Shown here in pieces: positions 1-33,742 of a DNA stretch of 34,701 nt. The notes beneath the pieces are model-generated. The model did no database searches. It worked only from the letters and a program-made list of their open reading frames with translations, and was not told where the DNA came from. The stretch lies in contig JAHBYC010000030.1 of assembly GCA_019636175.1 (NCBI GenBank), forward strand, positions 1-34,701. Reading direction: 5' to 3'. Source of the DNA: Caulobacter sp. GTDB taxonomy: Bacteria; Pseudomonadota; Alphaproteobacteria; Caulobacterales; Caulobacteraceae. Each line of letters begins with the position of its first letter. The stretch's first letter is position 1. A program made the translations under genes and the position numbers.

Positions 1-1446
1 GCGCCGCGCCCGCTTCGCGATCGTTCGCCGTGCGTTCGGCGCGGGCGGCGGCGGCGGCGGTGCGGCCGCGGGGGGCGGCGGCGCGGGCGGCGCCGGCGGA
101 GCAGGCGGCGCCAGCATCACGAAATTGACCGTCGACGGACCCTCGCCGGGTTGCTCGGGGCCGGTGACCTCGATCAGGGCGATCTTCTCTGAGCTCAGAG
201 TTTTGGGGGTGAAGTCGTTGGCGACCGGATGGCCGTTGACCAGGAACACCACCTTGGCCAGTTCGGCGTCACGCCGGGGATCGCCGGTCGGCGTCTTCAG
301 GTCGACGATGGGGCGACCCCGCCAGATGGTGACGTTGCCGGGGCGGGTCTCGACCACATCGGCGGCGATCGTGATCTCCCCCTTGGGACTGCCCGGGCCG
401 TCCTGGGCCGACTGACGCCAGCTGGAGGCGCGACCCTTGGCCGGGGCCGCCTGCACGGCGAGGGCGACCGAGCCGGCGCTGATGGCGGCGACGAGGACCG
501 CCGCGACCGCGACGACGCCGAGGGCGGCGCGGGGGCCGCCGGACGGACGGGGCTGGAGAATGGCTTGCAGACGCATGGCGGTCTTCCTTCCGGCGCCGAT
601 GAAGGCGGAATGCGGCTCCGGACCGGCGCGGAGCCGGAGCGTGTCGATCAGGGCCTGGGCGTAGGCGCGGCGGGCCGCCTCATCGGCCCCGGACAGGGCG
701 ATGGCGTCGCAATGCTCCTCGCGGGCGGCGGCCAGCCGGGCGTGGATCATGGCCATCAGGGGGTTGAACCAGAACACCGCCAGGATCACGGCCTCGCCCC
801 AGCTGCGCGGGTTGTCGCCGCGCTTGAGGTGGGCCAGTTCATGGCCGCAGATCAGCATCAGCCGATCCAGCGGCAGCCTGGCGAGCGCCCGGGGAATGAC
901 GATGGCCGGGCGAAGCACGCCGGCCAGCATCGGGCTGACCGCTTGCCGCGACTCCTTCAGGTCCGGCGCGCGGACGCCCAGGTCACGGGCCCGGTCGGCC
1001 AGGGCCAGTCGCAGCGCGGGGTTCTCGAGCGCGCGGGCCCGATGCATCAGCAGAGCGAGACGAATGTGCCGGCGCAGGATCAGGCCAAAGGCGACCCCCG
1101 CCCCCAGTAGAATCACGGCGAGCAGAACCGTCGGCGCGAGCAGGCGGGCCAGATCGATCAGATGATCGAGCGCCGTCGGCTGGGCGACCGTAACGGTCAC
1201 GGCGGCCGGATCCGCGGTGACGCCGCCCGCGACCGGCGTTGGCGGAGTGAGGCGAACCAGATGCGGCGCCAGCAACGGAATGGCGACCGCGCCCAGGGCC
1301 GGCAGCAGGAAGGCCAGGGTCCAGAGCCGCTCCCGGGGCGCCGGCGCCGGGGTGATCCGCTCCGCCAGAACGCCTGCCGTCAGTCCAAGGGCGGCCAGGG
1401 GCAGGCTGGCGCCGAGCGTCAGCAGGGCGAGGGAAACGCCGGTCAT
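1..1446 (-). CDS. M56-family membrane metallopeptidase (BlaR1/MecR1-like), partial
   Basis: The gene enters from the left edge; 482 codons are visible from the ATG at 1446. It starts with several hydrophobic segments, then a cytoplasmic zinc-protease region with HELAH at residues 202-206 and a downstream REEHCDA segment, as in the M56 family. Another membrane segment follows, then an exported region with VFLVNGHPV...IALIEV (about residues 398-420), resembling the TonB-plug-like segment of some M56 proteins, and finally a Pro/Ala-rich stretch that continues beyond the window. BlaR1-type proteases sense a signal outside the membrane and lead to inactivation of a BlaI-type repressor. Its ATG overlaps the repressor stop (ATGA), so the two genes are translationally coupled. 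No penicillin-binding sensor domain is visible, so the inducing signal is unknown and beta-lactam sensing should not be assumed. Confidence 0.88.
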   Translation of the reverse strand, partial: MTGVSLALLTLGASLPLAALGLTAGVLAERITPAPAPRERLWTLAFLLPALGAVAIPLLAPHLVRLTPPTPVAGGVTADPAAVTVTVAQPTALDHLIDLARLLAPTVLLAVILLGAGVAFGLILRRHIRLALLMHRARALENPALRLALADRARDLGVRAPDLKESRQAVSPMLAGVLRPAIVIPRALARLPLDRLMLICGHELAHLKRGDNPRSWGEAVILAVFWFNPLMAMIHARLAAAREEHCDAIALSGADEAARRAYAQALIDTLRLRAGPEPHSAFIGAGRKTAMRLQAILQPRPSGGPRAALGVVAVAAVLVAAISAGSVALAVQAAPAKGRASSWRQSAQDGPGSPKGEITIAADVVETRPGNVTIWRGRPIVDLKTPTGDPRRDAELAKVVFLVNGHPVANDFTPKTLSSEKIALIEVTGPEQPGEGPSTVNFVMLAPPAPPAPPAPPPPAAAPPPPPPAPNARRTIAKRARR

Positions 1447-1832
1447 GCTTCCGGCTCCTCTTCGGCGTTGAGCAGGGTCTCCAGCTGGGCCAGTTCGTCC
1501 GGCGAAAGGATCTGGCTGCCGGCGAAGGCGGAGGCGGGCAGGGGGCCCTCCACCTCCAGGACCTGGCGCATCACCCGTCGCAGCAGGCCCCCGAGGATAT
1601 CGGCCTTTCCGCGCGCCGCCTCATAGACGGCGATGCCATGCACCGACCGACGGGAGATCAGGCCCTTGGCCCGCATCCGCTCGAGCACCGTGCGGGTGGT
1701 TGACGCGGTCCAGTCGAGCCCTTCCGGCAGGGCGGCCTGAACCTCCCGGGCGCTGGCGGCGCCGTCCCGCCAGAAGACCTTGAGAATCTCAAGTTCGGTG
1801 TCGGAAGGGGGCTGGATCATGCTGGTTCTCAT
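1443..1832 (-). CDS. blaI: BlaI/MecI-family transcriptional repressor
   Basis: This 129-aa winged-helix repressor has the expected family length. The N-terminal half carries the DNA-binding domain (DTELEILKVFW, then SAREVQAAL and TASTTRTVLERMRAKGLI). The C-terminal half should dimerise and hold the site cut when the partner protease is activated. ATG 1832 is used; a second in-frame Met at residue 5 is possible. It is the first gene of a two-gene operon with the M56 protease. The sequence TACATCTGTA, the TACA/TGTA operator type of this family, lies 19 bp upstream and overlaps the predicted promoter, so the operon is probably autorepressed. The gene symbol reflects family membership only; no beta-lactamase gene is in view. 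Confidence 0.9.
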   Translation of the reverse strand: MRTSMIQPPSDTELEILKVFWRDGAASAREVQAALPEGLDWTASTTRTVLERMRAKGLISRRSVHGIAVYEAARGKADILGGLLRRVMRQVLEVEGPLPASAFAGSQILSPDELAQLETLLNAEEEPEA

Positions 1833-1987: not shown

Positions 1988-2305
1988 ATGGCCCAGCAAC
2001 TCGAATTCGCCGGTCAGTCCGGCCAGGGCTACCGCTACCTGCCGCTCGACGACGCCGCGGCGGTCTCGCCGACGGGAGCCAATTTCCTGTTCGTGAAGGT
2101 CAAGGGTGGGGAGCAATCTGTGGTCTTCGCCGGTGAAACCGAATGTCTCCACAAGGGCGTCCACGCCGGTTGGGACAAGGCCCGCAAGACCCATGGCGCC
2201 AACACCATCTTCATTCGCCTCAACGTCACCCGCGCCATCCGGCAGGCCGAGCTTGAGGACATCGTCGCCCTGCACCAGCCGCCCATGAACGGCGCCGAGA
2301 ACTGA
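1988..2305 (+). CDS. Conserved-looking hypothetical protein, 105 aa
   Basis: I do not recognise this protein. It is a 105-aa soluble, mixed-charge protein with no signal peptide, no membrane segment and one cysteine (ETECLHKG). The start ATG 1988 has a good ribosome binding site (AAGGAG, about 1976-1981). Codon use is like its neighbours, and the opposite-strand frame over the same region has no comparable start signal, so the plus-strand frame is preferred. It stands alone between the divergent blaI operon and the LexA-controlled peptide upstream of dnaE. It may be a lineage-specific Caulobacteraceae protein; no function is proposed. Confidence 0.72.
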   Translation: MAQQLEFAGQSGQGYRYLPLDDAAAVSPTGANFLFVKVKGGEQSVVFAGETECLHKGVHAGWDKARKTHGANTIFIRLNVTRAIRQAELEDIVALHQPPMNGAEN

Positions 2306-2351: not shown

Positions 2352-2392
2352 TTGCCTGTGGAACAAAACGGGAATAGGAACAAACCCGGAAC
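2352..2392 (+). promoter_or_regulatory. SOS promoter with two LexA boxes upstream of the 29-aa gene
   Basis: A perfect alphaproteobacterial LexA box in reverse orientation, GAAC-N7-GAAC, lies at 2378-2392. A second, 7-of-8 match, GAAC-N7-GAAT, lies at 2361-2375, exactly 17 bp upstream. A possible promoter is TTGCCT (2352-2357), 17 bp, TAGGAA (2375-2380), so both boxes would cover the spacer, -10 and start point. The motif type is established for alphaproteobacterial LexA, and lexA in this window carries the same box. Control of the following 29-codon gene, and possibly of dnaE by read-through, is inferred. Confidence 0.8.
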
Positions 2393-2410
2393 TTGGCTTG
2401 GGAGGCTCGA

Positions 2411-2500
2411 ATGGTCCGGATCGCTCGTGAAACGCTCGCTTTGGCTTCGGTTGTCGGGTTTGTGTGGATGATGTGCTCGGTGGCCTATCTGGCGGCGTGA
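2411..2500 (+). CDS. sidA: 29-aa SOS-controlled inner-membrane peptide, probable SidA (cell division inhibitor)
   Basis: This tiny gene encodes 29 residues: a short basic N-terminus (MVRIARET) and then one hydrophobic segment of about 20 residues to the end ([13 protein letters not shown]...). It has a strong ribosome binding site, GGGAGG at 2400-2405, five bases before the ATG. Two LexA boxes lie just upstream. In Caulobacter crescentus, SidA is a LexA-repressed inner-membrane protein of only 29 residues that blocks cytokinesis after DNA damage by acting on the divisome proteins FtsW/FtsN. The identical length, single transmembrane segment and LexA control make this a likely orthologue, although I could not compare sequences. 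It lies 47 bp before dnaE on the same strand. Automatic gene callers usually miss genes this short. Confidence 0.78.
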
Positions 2501-2547: not shown

Positions 2548-5500
2548 ATGGCGGATCTGGCGAACGGCTTTGTCCATTTGCGGGTGCGCTCGGCCTATTC
2601 CCTGCTGGAAGGCGCCATCAAGGCGGACGCCATGCCGAAGCTGGCCGGCGGCCAGGGCATGCCGGCGGTGGGTATCGCCGACCGGGCCAATCTCTTCGGG
2701 GCGCTGGAGTTTTCCGTCGCCGGCAAGGATGCCGGGGTGCAGCCGATCGTGGGATGCGCCCTGCCGGTCACCGGCATCGGTGAAGGCCCGCCGGAGCGCT
2801 GGGCGCGAACCCCGACGGTGGTTTTGCTGGCCCAGAACGAGACCGGCTATCTCAATCTCTCCGAACTGTCCTCGGCCGCCTACCTCGAGGGCGACGGCAT
2901 GAGCGAGCCCTCGGTCCCCTGGGCGCGGGTGATCGAGCGCTGTGAGGGATTGATCCTGTTGTCGGGCGGTGTGGACGGCCCGGCCGATCCGCTGTTCGCC
3001 GCCGGCAAGGCCGCCGAGGGCGGGGCAGTGCTGGCCGAGATGGCCCGGGTCTTCGGCGACCGTTTCTATGTCGAACTGCAGCGACATGGCCTGCCCCAGC
3101 AGGCGGCGGCCGAGCCGGGCCTGGTGGCCTGGGCCTATGAGCACGATGCGCCGCTGGTCGCCACCAATGACGTCTACTACCCCGACCGGTCGATGCATGA
3201 GGCGCACGACGCCCTGCTCTGCATCGCCGACGGCGCCTATGTCGGCCAGGACGAGCGGCGGCGGGTGACCGCCGAGCATTACTTCAAGTCGGCCGAGGAG
3301 ATGCGGACCCTGTTCGCCGACCTGCCCGAGGCCTGCGACCACAGCCTTGAGATCGCTCGCCGCTGCGCCTTCATGGTCGGCAAGCGCGACCCGATCCTGC
3401 CGCGGTTCGACACCGGCGCGGGCCGCAGCGAGCCGGATGAACTGGCCCATCAGGCGCGCGAGGGTCTCAAGGCGCGGCTGGCGGCGGTCGAGCTGGCGGC
3501 GCCGGAAGCCGACTACTGGACGCGGCTCGAGTTCGAGATCGGCATCATCCAGCAGATGGGCTTCCCCGGTTACTTCCTGATCGTTGCCGACTTCATCAAA
3601 TGGGCCAAGTCGCACGGCATTCCGGTGGGGCCGGGGCGGGGATCGGGGGCCGGCTCGCTGGTGGCCTGGTCGCTGACCATCACCGACCTGGATCCGCTGC
3701 GCTTCGGCCTGCTGTTCGAGCGCTTCCTCAATCCGGAACGGGTCTCGATGCCCGACTTCGACATCGACTTCTGTCAGGAGCGGCGCGAGGAGGTGATCTC
3801 CTACGTCCAGCAGAAGTACGGCGTCGACAAGGTGGCCCAGATCATCACCTTCGGCACCCTGCAGGCCAGGGCCGTGGTGCGCGATGTCGGTCGGGTGATG
3901 CAGCTGCCGCTGGGGCTGGTCGACCGCCTGGCCAAGATGATCCCCAACAACCCGGCCAATCCGACCACCCTGGCCCAGGCCATTCAGATCGAACCGCGCC
4001 TGAAGCAGGCCCGCGACGAGGATGAACAGGTGCGGATGTGCCTGGATGTCGCCCTGCGGCTGGAGGGATTGTTCCGCAACGCCTCGACCCACGCCGCCGG
4101 GGTGGTCATCGGCGATCGGCCCCTGACCCGTCTGACCCCGCTGTACAAGGACCCCCGCTCCGAACTGCCGGCGACGCAGTTCAACATGAAGTGGGTGGAA
4201 AGCGCCGGCCTGGTGAAGTTCGACTTCCTGGGCCTCAAGACCCTGACGGTGATCGACCGGGCGCTGAAGCACATGGCCAAGCGCGGCGCGGACATCGATA
4301 TCTCCGCCCTGCCGCTGGACGACGCGGCCTCCTACGAGTTGATGAGTTCCGGCCAGACCGTCGGGGTGTTCCAGCTGGAAAGCCAGGGCATGCGCGACAC
4401 CCTGCGCAAGCTGCGGCCCGGCAGCCTGGAGGAGGTCACCGCCATCATCTCCCTCTATCGGCCGGGGCCGATGGAGAACATCGACAGCTTCGTCGACTGC
4501 AAGTTCGGCCGCAAGCCGATCGACACTCTTCACCCGACCCTGGAGCCGGTGCTGAAGGAGACCTACGGCATCGTCGTCTATCAGGAACAGGTGATGCAGA
4601 TCGCCCAGATCCTGGCCGGCTACAGCCTGGGTGAAGCCGATCTGCTGCGCCGCGCCATGGGCAAGAAGAAGCCCGAGGAAATGGCCCAGCAGAAGGTCCG
4701 TTTCGTCGCCGGGGCGGAAGCCAAGGGCGTCGAGGCCGACCGCGCCCGGTCGATCTTTGATCTGGTTGAGAAGTTCGCTGGCTATGGCTTCAACAAGAGC
4801 CACGCGGCCGCCTATGCGCTGATTTCCTACCAGACCGCCTGGCTCAAGGCGAACGCGGCCGTGGAGTTCATGGCCGCGTCGATGAGCCTAGACATCTCCA
4901 ACACCGACAAGCTGGCGGTCTTCTACCAGGACGCCCGGCGCTCGGGGATCACGGTGCGGCCGCCGGACGTCAATCGCTCCGGCGCGGACTTCGAGGTCGA
5001 GGACGGCGAGGTGCTCTACGCCCTGGGGGCGGTGCGCAATGTCGGCCTTGCGGCGATGGAGCATCTGGTCGAGGTGCGCCGGGAGGGCGGGCCGTTCCGG
5101 GATATCTTCGACGTCGTCGAACGGGTCGATCCGCGACAGGTCAACAAGAGGGCGCTGGAAGGTCTGGCCCGGGCCGGGGCGTTCGACAGCATCCATCCCA
5201 ACCGGGCCCAGATTGTCGCCGCCGCCGACGTGCTGATCGCCCATGGCCAGAGCCTGGCGGCCGACCGCGCCTCGGCCCAGGTCAATCTGTTCGGCGGCGA
5301 CCAGTCCGACGCCTCGCGGCCGCGCCTGCCCAGGATCGAGCCCTGGGACCAGATTCGCCGCCTAGACGAGGAACTGGCGGCGGTCGGCTTTTATCTGACC
5401 GGTCATCCGCTGGAAGACATGGTCGATGTCCTGCGCCGTCGGCGGGTGACGCTGATGGCCGAGGCCATCCCTCAGGCGGAGGCCGGACAGGAGGCCTTCA

Positions 5501-5979
5501 AGATGGCGGGCATGGTGCGCCGCCGTCAGGAACGGGCCAGTGCGCGGGGCGACAAGTTCGCCTTTGTCTCGCTGTCCGATCCCAGCGGTGAGTATGAGGT
5601 GCTGTTCCCGCCGGAGTCCCTGCGCAAGTGTCGCGAGGTGCTGGAGCCGGGCAAGGCGGTGGTGCTGCGGGTGCGATGCAAGGCGCGGGACGGGGAGGTG
5701 CGTTTCTTCGGCGATGACGCCGAACCGGTCGACAAGGCGCTGGAGGCCGTCTCGGCGGGACTGAGAGTGCATGTCTCGCCGGGATCGGCCGAGATCGAGG
5801 CCCTGAAGAAACGCCTCACCGGCGCCGCCGCCCAGCGCGGCGGGGAAGTGGTGCTGGTCGCCGGCATCGGCGGCGGCCGGGAGGTCGAGGTCAAGCTGCC
5901 AGGCTTATACGCCCTCGACGCGTCCCTGCGCGGGGCGCTCAAGACGGCCCCGGGCGTCGCCTATCTCGAGGACGTCTAG
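2548..5979 (+). CDS. dnaE: DNA polymerase III subunit alpha
   Basis: The catalytic subunit of the replicative polymerase, 1143 aa, is a typical DnaE1 length. The N-terminal PHP domain starts with [14 protein letters not shown]; the second metal-binding His position reads Arg, suggesting the PHP domain is not an active exonuclease and proofreading comes from a separate DnaQ (inference). The palm domain carries the two catalytic aspartates in PDFDIDF (about residues 401-407) and the third in KFDFLGL (about 556). A beta-clamp binding motif, QVNLF, is near residue 911, and the C-terminus has an OB fold and tail region. GGAGG at 2531-2535 precedes ATG 2548. A long opposite-strand open frame inside the gene is a GC-rich shadow. 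The gene may be co-transcribed with the LexA-controlled peptide upstream. Confidence 0.97.
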
Positions 5980-26911: not shown

Positions 26912-27613
26912 TTAATGATAGCGGCGGATCAGCCCGACCAGCTTGCCTTGTACGGCGACCTGATCAGGGCCGTAGATCTGGGTCTGGTACTTGGGGTTGG
27001 CCGCTTCCAGGGCGATGGAGGCGCCCTTGCGGCGCAGGCGCTTCAGCGTCGCTGTCTCGCCCTCGACCAGAGCCACGACGATCTCGCCGCTGGTGGCGGT
27101 GTCGGTCCGGCGAATGACCACATAGTCGCCGTTGAGAATGCCGGCGTCGATCATCGAGTCGCCGTCGACCTCGAGCACGTAATGCTCGCCGGCGCCCAGC
27201 ATGGTTTCAGGCACCATCAGCCGGTCACGCTCATGCTGGATAGCGTCGAGCGGCACACCGGCGGCGATGCGGCCGAGCACGGAAAGCTCGCGCACGTCAT
27301 TCGCCGGTTCAGGTATCTGGGCCGCCGGCGGACGGGAGCCTTCGACAACCTGGGGCCGGAAGGCTTGTCGACCGCCGGCCGGGGCCGAGGTCGTGGCCTG
27401 TTGCGGCAGTTTGACCACCTCCAGCGCCCGGGCCCGGTGCGCCAGGCGCCGCAGAAAGCCGCGTTCCTCCAGGGCGGTAATCAGCCGGTGGATGCCGGAC
27501 TTCGAGGCCAGGTCCAGCGCGTCCTTCATCTCGTCGAACGAGGGGGAAACGCCGGTTTCCTTGATCCGTTCATGGATGAACATCAGAAGTTCGTGCTGTT
27601 TACGGGTCAGCAT
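26912..27613 (-). CDS. lexA: LexA SOS repressor
   Basis: This is the master repressor of the DNA-damage response; it self-cleaves when RecA filaments form. ATG 27613 ([21 protein letters not shown]) is the family start; the longer open frame would read through the operator region. The length is 233 aa, longer than E. coli LexA (202) because of a Pro/Ala-rich linker (about 70-105), usual in alphaproteobacteria. The N-terminal winged helix has [23 protein letters not shown], the cleavage site is Ala118-Gly119 in RIAAGVPL, and the catalytic dyad is Ser153 (GDSMIDAG) and Lys191 (TATLKRL). Its promoter carries a perfect LexA box, so it is autoregulated; its regulon includes the 29-aa gene at 2411. 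Confidence 0.97.
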
Positions 27614-27666
27614 AGGGCCGGTCTCCAGGCGCGACTTGATGGGAACAAATCGCAAACGATGGGAAT

Positions 27667-27695
27667 GTTCTCTAGGTGTTCTTTCTTTCTGTCAA
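27667..27695 (-). promoter_or_regulatory. lexA promoter and SOS box
   Basis: GTTC-N7-GTTC at 27667-27681 is a perfect alphaproteobacterial LexA box. Reading on the minus strand, TTGACA (27695-27690) is followed 15 bp later by TAGAGA (27674-27669), also readable as CCTAGAGA against the Caulobacter GCTANAWC consensus, so the box covers the -10. A degenerate second site, GAAC-N7-AAAC, lies nearer the gene at 27643-27657. Confidence 0.85.
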
Positions 27696-31754: not shown

Positions 31755-33647
31755 TCAGGCGTGTTCGGGTTCCCGGTGGTGATGGTCCTCGGCATGCTTG
31801 TCGCCGTGCGCGTGATCATCGTGGGCTTGGTCGTCATGCCCATGATCGCCGTGCCCATGATCTGCGTGCCCGTGATCATCATGGGCATGGGCCGCGTGCC
31901 CATGGTCGTCATGAGCGTGATCGGCGGGGGCGTGATCTTCGCCGGCGTGACCATGAGCGTGATCGTCGTGCGCGTGGTCGTCATGCCCATGATCGGCGTG
32001 AGCCTCGGCGGCCGGGGCGTGGCCATCGGCATGGGCCGGCTCGGGGTGGGCCTCCGGATGAGCGGCGGCCGCCTCTTCAGCCGGGGTGAAGGTCATGGCC
32101 GAGGAGCCGGCTTCATAGCCGGCCGCCGCCGGCGTCTGATCGGCGTGGTGAGGATCGGCGTGGTGATCGGCCGCGTGGGCTTCCACCGCGTGGACCTCGG
32201 CCGCCGGCGCATGGGCGGTGTGGCTGACCTGGGGCTCCGGCTCGGGCGCGGGGGCCTCGTCCTCGGCGTGGTTGTAGTCGGTCATGGTGCGGAACTTGCG
32301 GCGCCGCTCCTCGCGGGCGCGGCGACCGGCGCCGGCGCGGGCCATGGCCAGCAGGATCAGCAGAAGCACGAAGGCGATGATGCCCGCCGTTGTGGCGCCG
32401 GGCGAGATCACCTGGCCGCCGACGATGATCGGCTTGAGGCCCGGCAGCGCCAGCTTGTCGAGGCTGGGCAGGCCCCACTTCTTCGCCTGGGACTTGGCGG
32501 TCTCGACCGTGCGGGCGACGGTCTGTTCCAGGGTGGCCAGGGAGAAGGTCTGGGTCTTGCCCTTCTGACCGGTCAGGGCGCCGTTGACGGTGGCCTTCAG
32601 CGGGGTCTTTTCGCCGTCGCCGGGCTTGACCATCCAGTCGAAACTGGCGGCCTCGCCCTTCTTCAGGGTCTGGGTCTGGGCGGCGTTCGGGGTGATGGTG
32701 TAGCCATCGCCGGTGAGGGTGGCGGAGACCTCGGCCTTCTTCGCGGACTTGGTCAGGCCCAGCTTGGCCGCTTCCTTCTGAATGACATCCAGCAGGTTTA
32801 TCGGCAGGGACAGGGTGACCTTGGACTCCTCGCCCTTGGCCAGGCTGTCGGGAACGGTCAGCACCGCGCCCTTGGCGACCTCGGGGCCGACGCTGGACGA
32901 CAGCTGCGCCATCTTCGGATCGACCGGCGGGGCCTTGGCCGCGGGCGCGACGGCGGGCGGCGCGATCTTCGGCGCCGGAACGGGCGCGACGACGGGCGGC
33001 GGAACCGCCTTCACCGGCGGCGGGGCGACGGCGACTTTCGGCGCGGGGGCGGGCGCGGGGCGCGGCGCCGGAACGGGTTTCGGAGCCTGCGCCTTGACCG
33101 TGGGGGCCACGGGCTTGAGCTTCGGCTTGGGGTGGAACCAGTTGCGGTTATGGCGCGGCGCCGAGCTTGGCTGCGGGGCGTAGCGCTTGCCATAGACGAG
33201 GCGACGCTCGCGCGGGGTCATGTCCTCGGGATTGGCGATGGGCCGCATCGCCACGACAAGGGTGCCGTCGGCCTTGCGCCACGACCGCAGGGGGGCGCCG
33301 GGCGTCACATCGGCCTCGACCTCGACGATCTGGCCGGGAAGGGGCTTGTAGCGGAGGTGGTCGAACTTGTGGCCGTAGATCTGCTGGCGCAGGGGCAGCG
33401 GCAGGTTTTCGGGGTTGGGGATGGGGTCCATCCCGGTGAAATCGCGAGGCCCGCCGACAAGGCCGCTGTCATCGGGGGGCGCGGTGTCGCCGCCCATCAG
33501 GTCGGTGGAGGTCCGGGGTTGTTCATAGGTCGAGGGGCCGGGGCCGCCGTAGCCATCGTCAGGGGCGCCCCCGCCACAGCCCGTCAGGGCCAGAAGCGCC
33601 ACCCCTGAAGCGGCGTAAGCTGTCGTAATCAACCAATTTTTCGCCAC
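31755..33647 (-). CDS. Large lipoprotein with one transmembrane segment and a histidine-rich cytoplasmic tail
   Basis: I do not recognise the family. GTG 33647 is preferred because GGGGG lies six bases upstream and it gives a textbook lipoprotein signal, MAKNWLITTAYAAS...LALTGC, with Cys24; an ATG 18 bp earlier is the alternative. Of 630 aa: a Gly/Pro-rich start; two copies of a 23-residue motif (73-95, 134-156; PIxNPE...YG); a Pro/Ala-rich spacer; a beta-rich domain (about 240-380); one membrane helix (about 416-435) followed by RRAREERRRKFR, which predicts a cytoplasmic C-terminus. The last 81 residues hold 29 His in HDDHAH/HGHADH-like repeats, a likely metal-binding tail. It precedes a TerC-family gene, so metal handling is inferred. 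The long opposite-strand frame here is a shadow. Confidence 0.82.
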   Translation of the reverse strand: MAKNWLITTAYAASGVALLALTGCGGGAPDDGYGGPGPSTYEQPRTSTDLMGGDTAPPDDSGLVGGPRDFTGMDPIPNPENLPLPLRQQIYGHKFDHLRYKPLPGQIVEVEADVTPGAPLRSWRKADGTLVVAMRPIANPEDMTPRERRLVYGKRYAPQPSSAPRHNRNWFHPKPKLKPVAPTVKAQAPKPVPAPRPAPAPAPKVAVAPPPVKAVPPPVVAPVPAPKIAPPAVAPAAKAPPVDPKMAQLSSSVGPEVAKGAVLTVPDSLAKGEESKVTLSLPINLLDVIQKEAAKLGLTKSAKKAEVSATLTGDGYTITPNAAQTQTLKKGEAASFDWMVKPGDGEKTPLKATVNGALTGQKGKTQTFSLATLEQTVARTVETAKSQAKKWGLPSLDKLALPGLKPIIVGGQVISPGATTAGIIAFVLLLILLAMARAGAGRRAREERRRKFRTMTDYNHAEDEAPAPEPEPQVSHTAHAPAAEVHAVEAHAADHHADPHHADQTPAAAGYEAGSSAMTFTPAEEAAAAHPEAHPEPAHADGHAPAAEAHADHGHDDHAHDDHAHGHAGEDHAPADHAHDDHGHAAHAHDDHGHADHGHGDHGHDDQAHDDHAHGDKHAEDHHHREPEHA

Positions 33648-33742
33648 CGGAACCCCCGATCCCATGTCGACAATGGATGGCGGATCGTCACGTCCGCCGG
33701 TACTGGAACCGGGAGGAAATCACGCCTTTGGACGAAGTCAAA

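Follow-up and report, generated by a model that had tools for sequence, protein, structure and literature searches.

The 34,701-nucleotide stretch of Caulobacter sp. DNA analyzed here (the window) encodes, immediately before dnaE, a 29-residue peptide that, judged by its sequence, is a genuine SidA, and we put the probability that it serves this organism as a LexA-repressed, damage-released, FtsW/FtsN-binding inhibitor of division at roughly 0.92. Comparison across the class further suggests that SidA is one branch of a wider predicted family of alphaproteobacterial peptides, and that the LexA box of this family has so far been assigned to dnaE. The features that bear on both points are collected in Table 1.

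Table 1. Coordinates of the sidA locus and of the lexA locus within the window.
Feature	Positions	Strand	Evidence
LexA box GAACAAAACGGGAAT, upper of tandem pair	2361..2375	.	7/8 specified bases (GAACN7GAAT); other Caulobacter loci show the same GAAT ending
LexA box GAACAAACCCGGAAC	2378..2392	.	Perfect, 8/8 (GAACN7GAAC); 17 bp after upper box
Shine-Dalgarno GGAGG	2401..2405	+	5 bases before sidA ATG
sidA, 29-residue single-TM peptide	2411..2500	+	ATG at 2411, stop 2498-2500; NF033228 full length (positions 1-29), 63.3 bits, cut-off 35; genus pN/pS 0.26
dnaE, DNA polymerase III alpha	2548..5979	+	NF004226, TIGR00594; starts 47 bp after sidA stop
lexA, SOS repressor expected at boxes	26912..27613	-	TIGR00498, 174.6 bits, cut-off 110.95; PDB LexA chains
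LexA boxes before lexA	27643..27681	.	27643-27657 7/8; 27667-27681 perfect

The sidA Gene and Its Predicted LexA Operators

An earlier note, made from the letters of the window alone, had described a 29-residue frame with a Shine-Dalgarno sequence five bases upstream and a single hydrophobic segment; the coordinates bear this out, and the best 17-residue Kyte-Doolittle mean, over residues 9–25, is 2.12. The GGAGG motif is present in the 16 loci compared for it. An alternative in-frame TTG start at 2393 would yield a 35-amino-acid product, but the ATG is preferred because of the position of the Shine-Dalgarno sequence and the 29-residue length of the curated model. That model is NF033228, the NCBI equivalog for cell division inhibitor SidA, and its full-length match to the window peptide, together with the conserved place, the conserved LexA boxes and the presence of lexA in the same window, backs the note's proposal of an orthologue of Caulobacter SidA, the comparison here being with the curated model and with other Caulobacter strains rather than with the NA1000 SidA sequence itself. 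In a profile search of the organism's own genome, NF033228 matched solely the window gene. The peptide shares 32–83% identity with the 39 other Caulobacteraceae rows of our 40-row SidA alignment and profile (A1), no PDB chain matches it, and Rfam returned no match within the window. Across the genus, 31 distinct sidA sequences give a pN/pS of 0.26, whereas the two shifted frames yield 0.74 and 4.03.

A pattern scan recovered both LexA boxes that had been claimed for the promoter, the perfect one and the 7/8 one. The window contains three perfect boxes against 0.71 expected, a count of at least three arising in 5 of 100 shuffles, and the draft genome contains 67, where a reversed control pattern gives 30. 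By itself a perfect box therefore says little, and conservation carries the argument. When relatives were searched for frames with LexA boxes before dnaE, as the earlier note had proposed, a SidA-like frame was found at 167 of 168 distinct dnaE-bearing loci of the Caulobacteraceae, many of these loci having been chosen on account of a SidA match. Every one of the 167 frames has a LexA box at most 95 bp upstream (115 perfect, 52 with one mismatch), and at the sole exception, locus L084, such a frame lies at a greater distance from dnaE, 348 bp upstream. The 168 loci were drawn from 218 after exclusion of 39 duplicates, six with a dnaE match below 58% (although L101, among these six, does bear a genuine dnaE), four without a dnaE start and one shorter than 250 bp. 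Successive boxes at these loci are most often spaced by 18 bp (96 pairs), 17 bp (51 pairs, and the spacing in the window) or 16 bp (23 pairs). The predicted operator of the window consists of a perfect and a 7/8 box and is conserved in relatives. The upper box often ends in GAAT, and one may guess that this half-site doubles as a −10 region; a consensus scan found no sigma-70-type promoter near sidA.

Distribution of SidA in the Caulobacteraceae

NF033228 matches 304 of the 390 genomes of the GTDB family, 209 of them above its cut-off. The earlier remark that genes this short are usually left unannotated therefore holds only in part: NCBI does maintain a SidA model, but divergent genera would escape it, since no more than 209 of the 390 genomes of the family have a match over its cut-off. 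Within the genus itself, 72 of 75 genomes match, and the three that do not (G264, G265, and G269) show no true dnaE, so that the sidA locus is probably unassembled in them. We tested 30 of the 86 NF033228-negative family genomes with the N-terminal part of dnaE. No true dnaE was found in five (G006 and G015, both of genus g3, and the three genomes just named), from whose assemblies the sidA locus is probably missing. Among the 25 that do bear dnaE, 20 have a SidA-like frame within 300 bp of it, as judged by eye, and the remaining five (G088, G089, G093, G109, and G176) were recovered by the A1 profile. Absence of SidA from NF033228-negative Caulobacteraceae was accordingly rejected for the 30 genomes tested.

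Applied to an order-wide sample of 398 genomes, A1 matched 93, all Caulobacteraceae, and did not match 305. The non-matching genome of nearest kinship belongs to another family, meaning that all 93 family genomes in the sample match; because the rows of A1 themselves come from this family, these positives are partly circular, while the 305 negatives are not.

Among mobile elements, INPHARED contained no credible phage SidA (best E 7), PLSDB contained no plasmid match, and no viral match in IMG/VR was confirmed. One relative that also has a normal SidA carries a 37-residue SidA-like frame, MTRLIRETLAFAAAATFVWAVCVGALVVGDLFRSLPA, at L241:9973-10086 on the minus strand (G236:C3), which scores 32.5 bits against A1 (E 4.9e-7) and 28.5 bits, under the cut-off, against NF033228. 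Among its neighbors are a DNA methylase, a phage integrase and an HTH regulator that weakly matches peptidase S24, and the 19.9 kb stretch around it contains no perfect LexA box. This frame is possibly a prophage-borne division inhibitor.

Neighboring Genes and the SOS Genes of the Genome

The window gene lies some 24 kb from lexA and its own boxes (26912-27681). Elsewhere in the same genome, perfect boxes lie near recA, uvrA, imuA, yifB/comM, radA and a PA0069-type radical SAM gene, these genes having been identified from N-terminal fragments in 15 stretches around boxes chosen among the 67. For two further box neighbors, which we take to be mmcB and rmuC, NCBIfam gave no match. Between sidA and dnaE, no terminator-like site was found on the plus strand.

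Other frames in the window include one of 105 codons that ends shortly upstream of the sidA promoter (1988-2305, plus strand), with no Pfam or NCBIfam match up to E 1; a regulator of the BlaI/MecI type, or penicillinase repressor family (1443-1832, minus strand; PF03965); and a frame on the minus strand at 31755-33665 that partially matches the stalk-specific protein StpX (NF051869, 237 bits, under the cut-off of 450).

Predicted dnaE-Linked Micropeptides outside the Caulobacteraceae

At E ≤ 0.001, the SidA profiles (NF033228 and A1) matched none of the 305 non-family genomes of the order; the class sample gave a single non-family match (G726, 21.8 bits), on a contig other than that of its dnaE. 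The distant peptides described below are therefore not filed as SidA. In genomes lacking a SidA match, we scanned the DNA before dnaE by criteria that make no use of sequence similarity: a perfect LexA box, with a start codon 20–90 bp after its first base opening a frame of 22–40 codons on the dnaE strand, within 450 bp, whose 17-residue Kyte-Doolittle mean reaches at least 1.5. The order sample covered 103 of 159 non-family genomes. The class sample covered 70 of 134 dnaE-matching genomes (two of the 134 belonging to the family), comprising the 30 best matches and 40 chosen, mostly larger, genomes; 69 of its loci were scanned, L364 (<250 bp) being excluded. The scan as a whole also left out the duplicates L243 and L249.

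A box followed by a single-TM frame of about 30 codons precedes dnaE at 24 of 34 loci in sister family f4 and at 30 of 34 in sister family f5, compared with 2 of 21 in f3, 0 of 14 in f2 and 13 of 69, in 11 families, across the rest of the class. Dinucleotide shuffles produced a mean of 0–0.02 such loci per group, the opposite strand produced 0–1, and the rest of the same non-Caulobacteraceae loci, largely coding, contained none in 625 strand-kb. Box density in these loci is 0.93 per kb before dnaE versus 0.042 elsewhere. Because the same scan recovers only 103 of the 168 Caulobacteraceae loci, it undercounts. With one box mismatch allowed, the counts become 31 of 33 (f4, locus L292 being left out), 31 of 34 (f5), 3 of 21 (f3), 0 of 14 (f2) and 16 of 69 (class), at least one added frame (L266) being unlike the others. 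The gene thus occurs at the majority of f4 and f5 loci and has a patchy distribution across the class, whereas nearly all f2 and f3 loci lack it before dnaE. Four f2 loci (L321-L324) have LexA boxes 75–156 bp before dnaE with no TM frame, and these boxes may serve dnaE itself.

Codon substitution was compared within single genera of f4 and f5, in frames chosen without any residue motif. The pN/pS is 0.29 in genus g26 of f5 (15 distinct sequences) and 0.19 in g38 of f4 (six), with 0.35, 0.35 and 0.32 in the further f4 genera g31 (five), g37 (four) and g34 (three), as compared with 0.26 for SidA in the genus of the window (31); the shifted frames give 0.74–1.32 and 1.96–8.46. In one f5 genus (g41, five sequences), the ratio of 0.77 is hardly under those of the shifted frames (0.93 and 1.24). 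Unaligned whole-family comparisons gave 0.32 and 0.69 for f1, 0.61 for f5, and 0.63 and 0.70 for f4; ratios of 0.6–0.7 are what saturation or misalignment would produce, and they add no support for genes.

Relationship of the Distant Peptides to SidA

When A1 was run on 1694 short non-family frames, the first 21 ranks all lay directly before dnaE (best E 0.0004, at L334; next 0.06), and the candidates scored above other TM-like frames (Mann-Whitney p 4e-10). In the reverse direction, a profile built solely from non-family peptides was run on 2937 short frames from the 168 Caulobacteraceae loci, and its top 26 hits were SidA frames (best E 9e-7); by a simple motif rule, SidA frames made up 48 of the top 50 and 144 of the top 150, and the first exceptions (L080, L084, and L083) resemble divergent SidAs.

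Significance was assessed against 200 composition-preserving shuffles of each peptide. With the non-family profile, 36 of 40 SidAs scored above all 200 of them. A second profile, built on 15 peptides of other orders, placed 31 of 40 SidAs, 18 of 22 f4 peptides and 27 of 30 f5 peptides above all of theirs. The SidA profile recognized, at p ≤ 0.05, 12 of 22 f4, 6 of 15 class and 6 of 30 f5 peptides, while the f5 profile recognized 1 of 40 SidAs, so that f5 and SidA show no direct mutual recognition. Two class frames judged spurious, one in L334 and one in L341, were left out of the shuffle test, and three rows keep an N-terminal overhang. A representative alignment (A3) displays a shared pattern, [KR][DE]..AL....GF.W....W. 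Remote homology of the distant peptides to SidA is therefore likely, with the f5 set likely linked to SidA only through intermediates; convergence on a similar TM helix is the conceivable alternative.

For 10 of the distant peptides, NCBIfam and Pfam gave no match above a curated cut-off and a few weak ones below it.

Discussion

In the window, LexA bound at the two tandem boxes over the promoter would keep sidA off. Upon DNA damage, RecA-driven cleavage of LexA would release the sidA promoter, in a genome where recA, uvrA and imuA are likewise accompanied by such boxes. The 29-residue product would enter the inner membrane as a single helix and bind FtsW (and FtsN), where it would hold the septal-wall complex FtsW/I/N inactive so that division waits for repair. 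By analogy, this organism would possess the same damage checkpoint as Caulobacter, as the earlier note had suggested. In C. crescentus, SidA interacts with FtsW and FtsN, and an inactive state of FtsW/I/N has been modeled (PMC4211646); sidA is reported as an early LexA-repressed SOS gene whose constitutive expression upon lexA deletion leads to filamentation (PMC12700426); and a 2026 paper modeled SidA on TM7 of FtsW with low confidence (PMC13396833). Like the window peptide, SidA of C. crescentus (NF033228) has 29 residues, one TM helix and LexA boxes, and the window peptide matches the SidA model over its full length; the differences seen are those of sequence.

The 47 bp gap suggests that dnaE would be transcribed together with sidA. 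A rival reading takes the frame for a leader (uORF) tuning dnaE and assigns the LexA box to dnaE. The proximity of dnaE fits such a role (gap 17–325 bp, median 37, over 167 loci), as does the earlier report of dnaE as SOS-regulated in C. crescentus (PMC3323433); in addition, a translated frame, sORF25, lies in the 5′-UTR of S. meliloti dnaE1, among sORFs of which some are possibly uORFs (PMC10117765). Nonetheless, a leader acting by position alone needs neither a conserved amino-acid sequence nor a TM helix, both of which are conserved here (genus pN/pS 0.26), and SidA of C. crescentus is active when overproduced from a plasmid (PMC4211646), so we regard the leader reading as improbable when it is set against a SidA function. 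Co-transcription with dnaE and a function of the peptide are compatible, and the two readings may both be true.

A further reading concerns what the peptide does. TisB, too, is a very short LexA-controlled TM peptide, and the window peptide could, like it, be an SOS-induced, membrane-depolarizing peptide instead of a divisome inhibitor. Both the match to the SidA equivalog and the suppression of SidA by ftsW mutations in C. crescentus (PMC4211646) speak against it, and we consider it very unlikely for the window peptide, though less so for the distant relatives. Short frames abound, and about 0.7 perfect boxes per window are expected by chance, but a mere coincidence of frame and boxes is refuted by conservation; the curated-model match, the codon pattern and the control DNA of the non-Caulobacteraceae loci, in whose 625 strand-kb no box with a TM frame occurred, also speak against it.

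DidA of C. crescentus, like SidA, is a small TM inhibitor of the FtsW/I/N step; unlike SidA, it is SOS-independent, induced by DriD, and binds FtsN (PMC4211646). YneA of B. subtilis, SosA of S. aureus and ChiZ of mycobacteria are, as SidA is, damage-induced membrane division inhibitors, and AlphaFold 3 models place SosA, ChiZ and SidA on FtsW TM7 as for YneA (PMC13396833). The dnaE-linked peptides of other alphaproteobacteria share with the window peptide its place, LexA box, length of about 30 residues and single TM helix, but only 10–31% identity in A3, their function being a prediction. An alphaproteobacterial comparison had recovered dnaE (PMC3323433). Among the open-access papers searched, judged by titles and abstract openings, none describes a SidA relative outside the Caulobacteraceae or a peptide under LexA control upstream of dnaE.

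The wider dnaE-linked family is a computational proposal, and its distant members are predicted to inhibit division. On balance, we lean slightly toward the view that an ancient family of dnaE-linked peptides, each a single helix repressed by LexA, exists in the alphaproteobacteria and has SidA as its Caulobacteraceae branch; that the box credited to dnaE belongs to a hidden checkpoint gene; that the sequence drifts past the reach of ordinary search while place, control and helix plan stay; and that members restrain septal wall synthesis well beyond Caulobacter.

For this organism, the analysis indicates that an SOS division checkpoint gene is present and locates it in the genome. To our knowledge, the way in which alphaproteobacteria halt division after DNA damage has been worked out mainly in Caulobacter. 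SidA was already known; it is the wider family that is worth following. The dnaE-linked peptides provide a place to look in each genome and a possible explanation for a LexA box hitherto assigned to dnaE.
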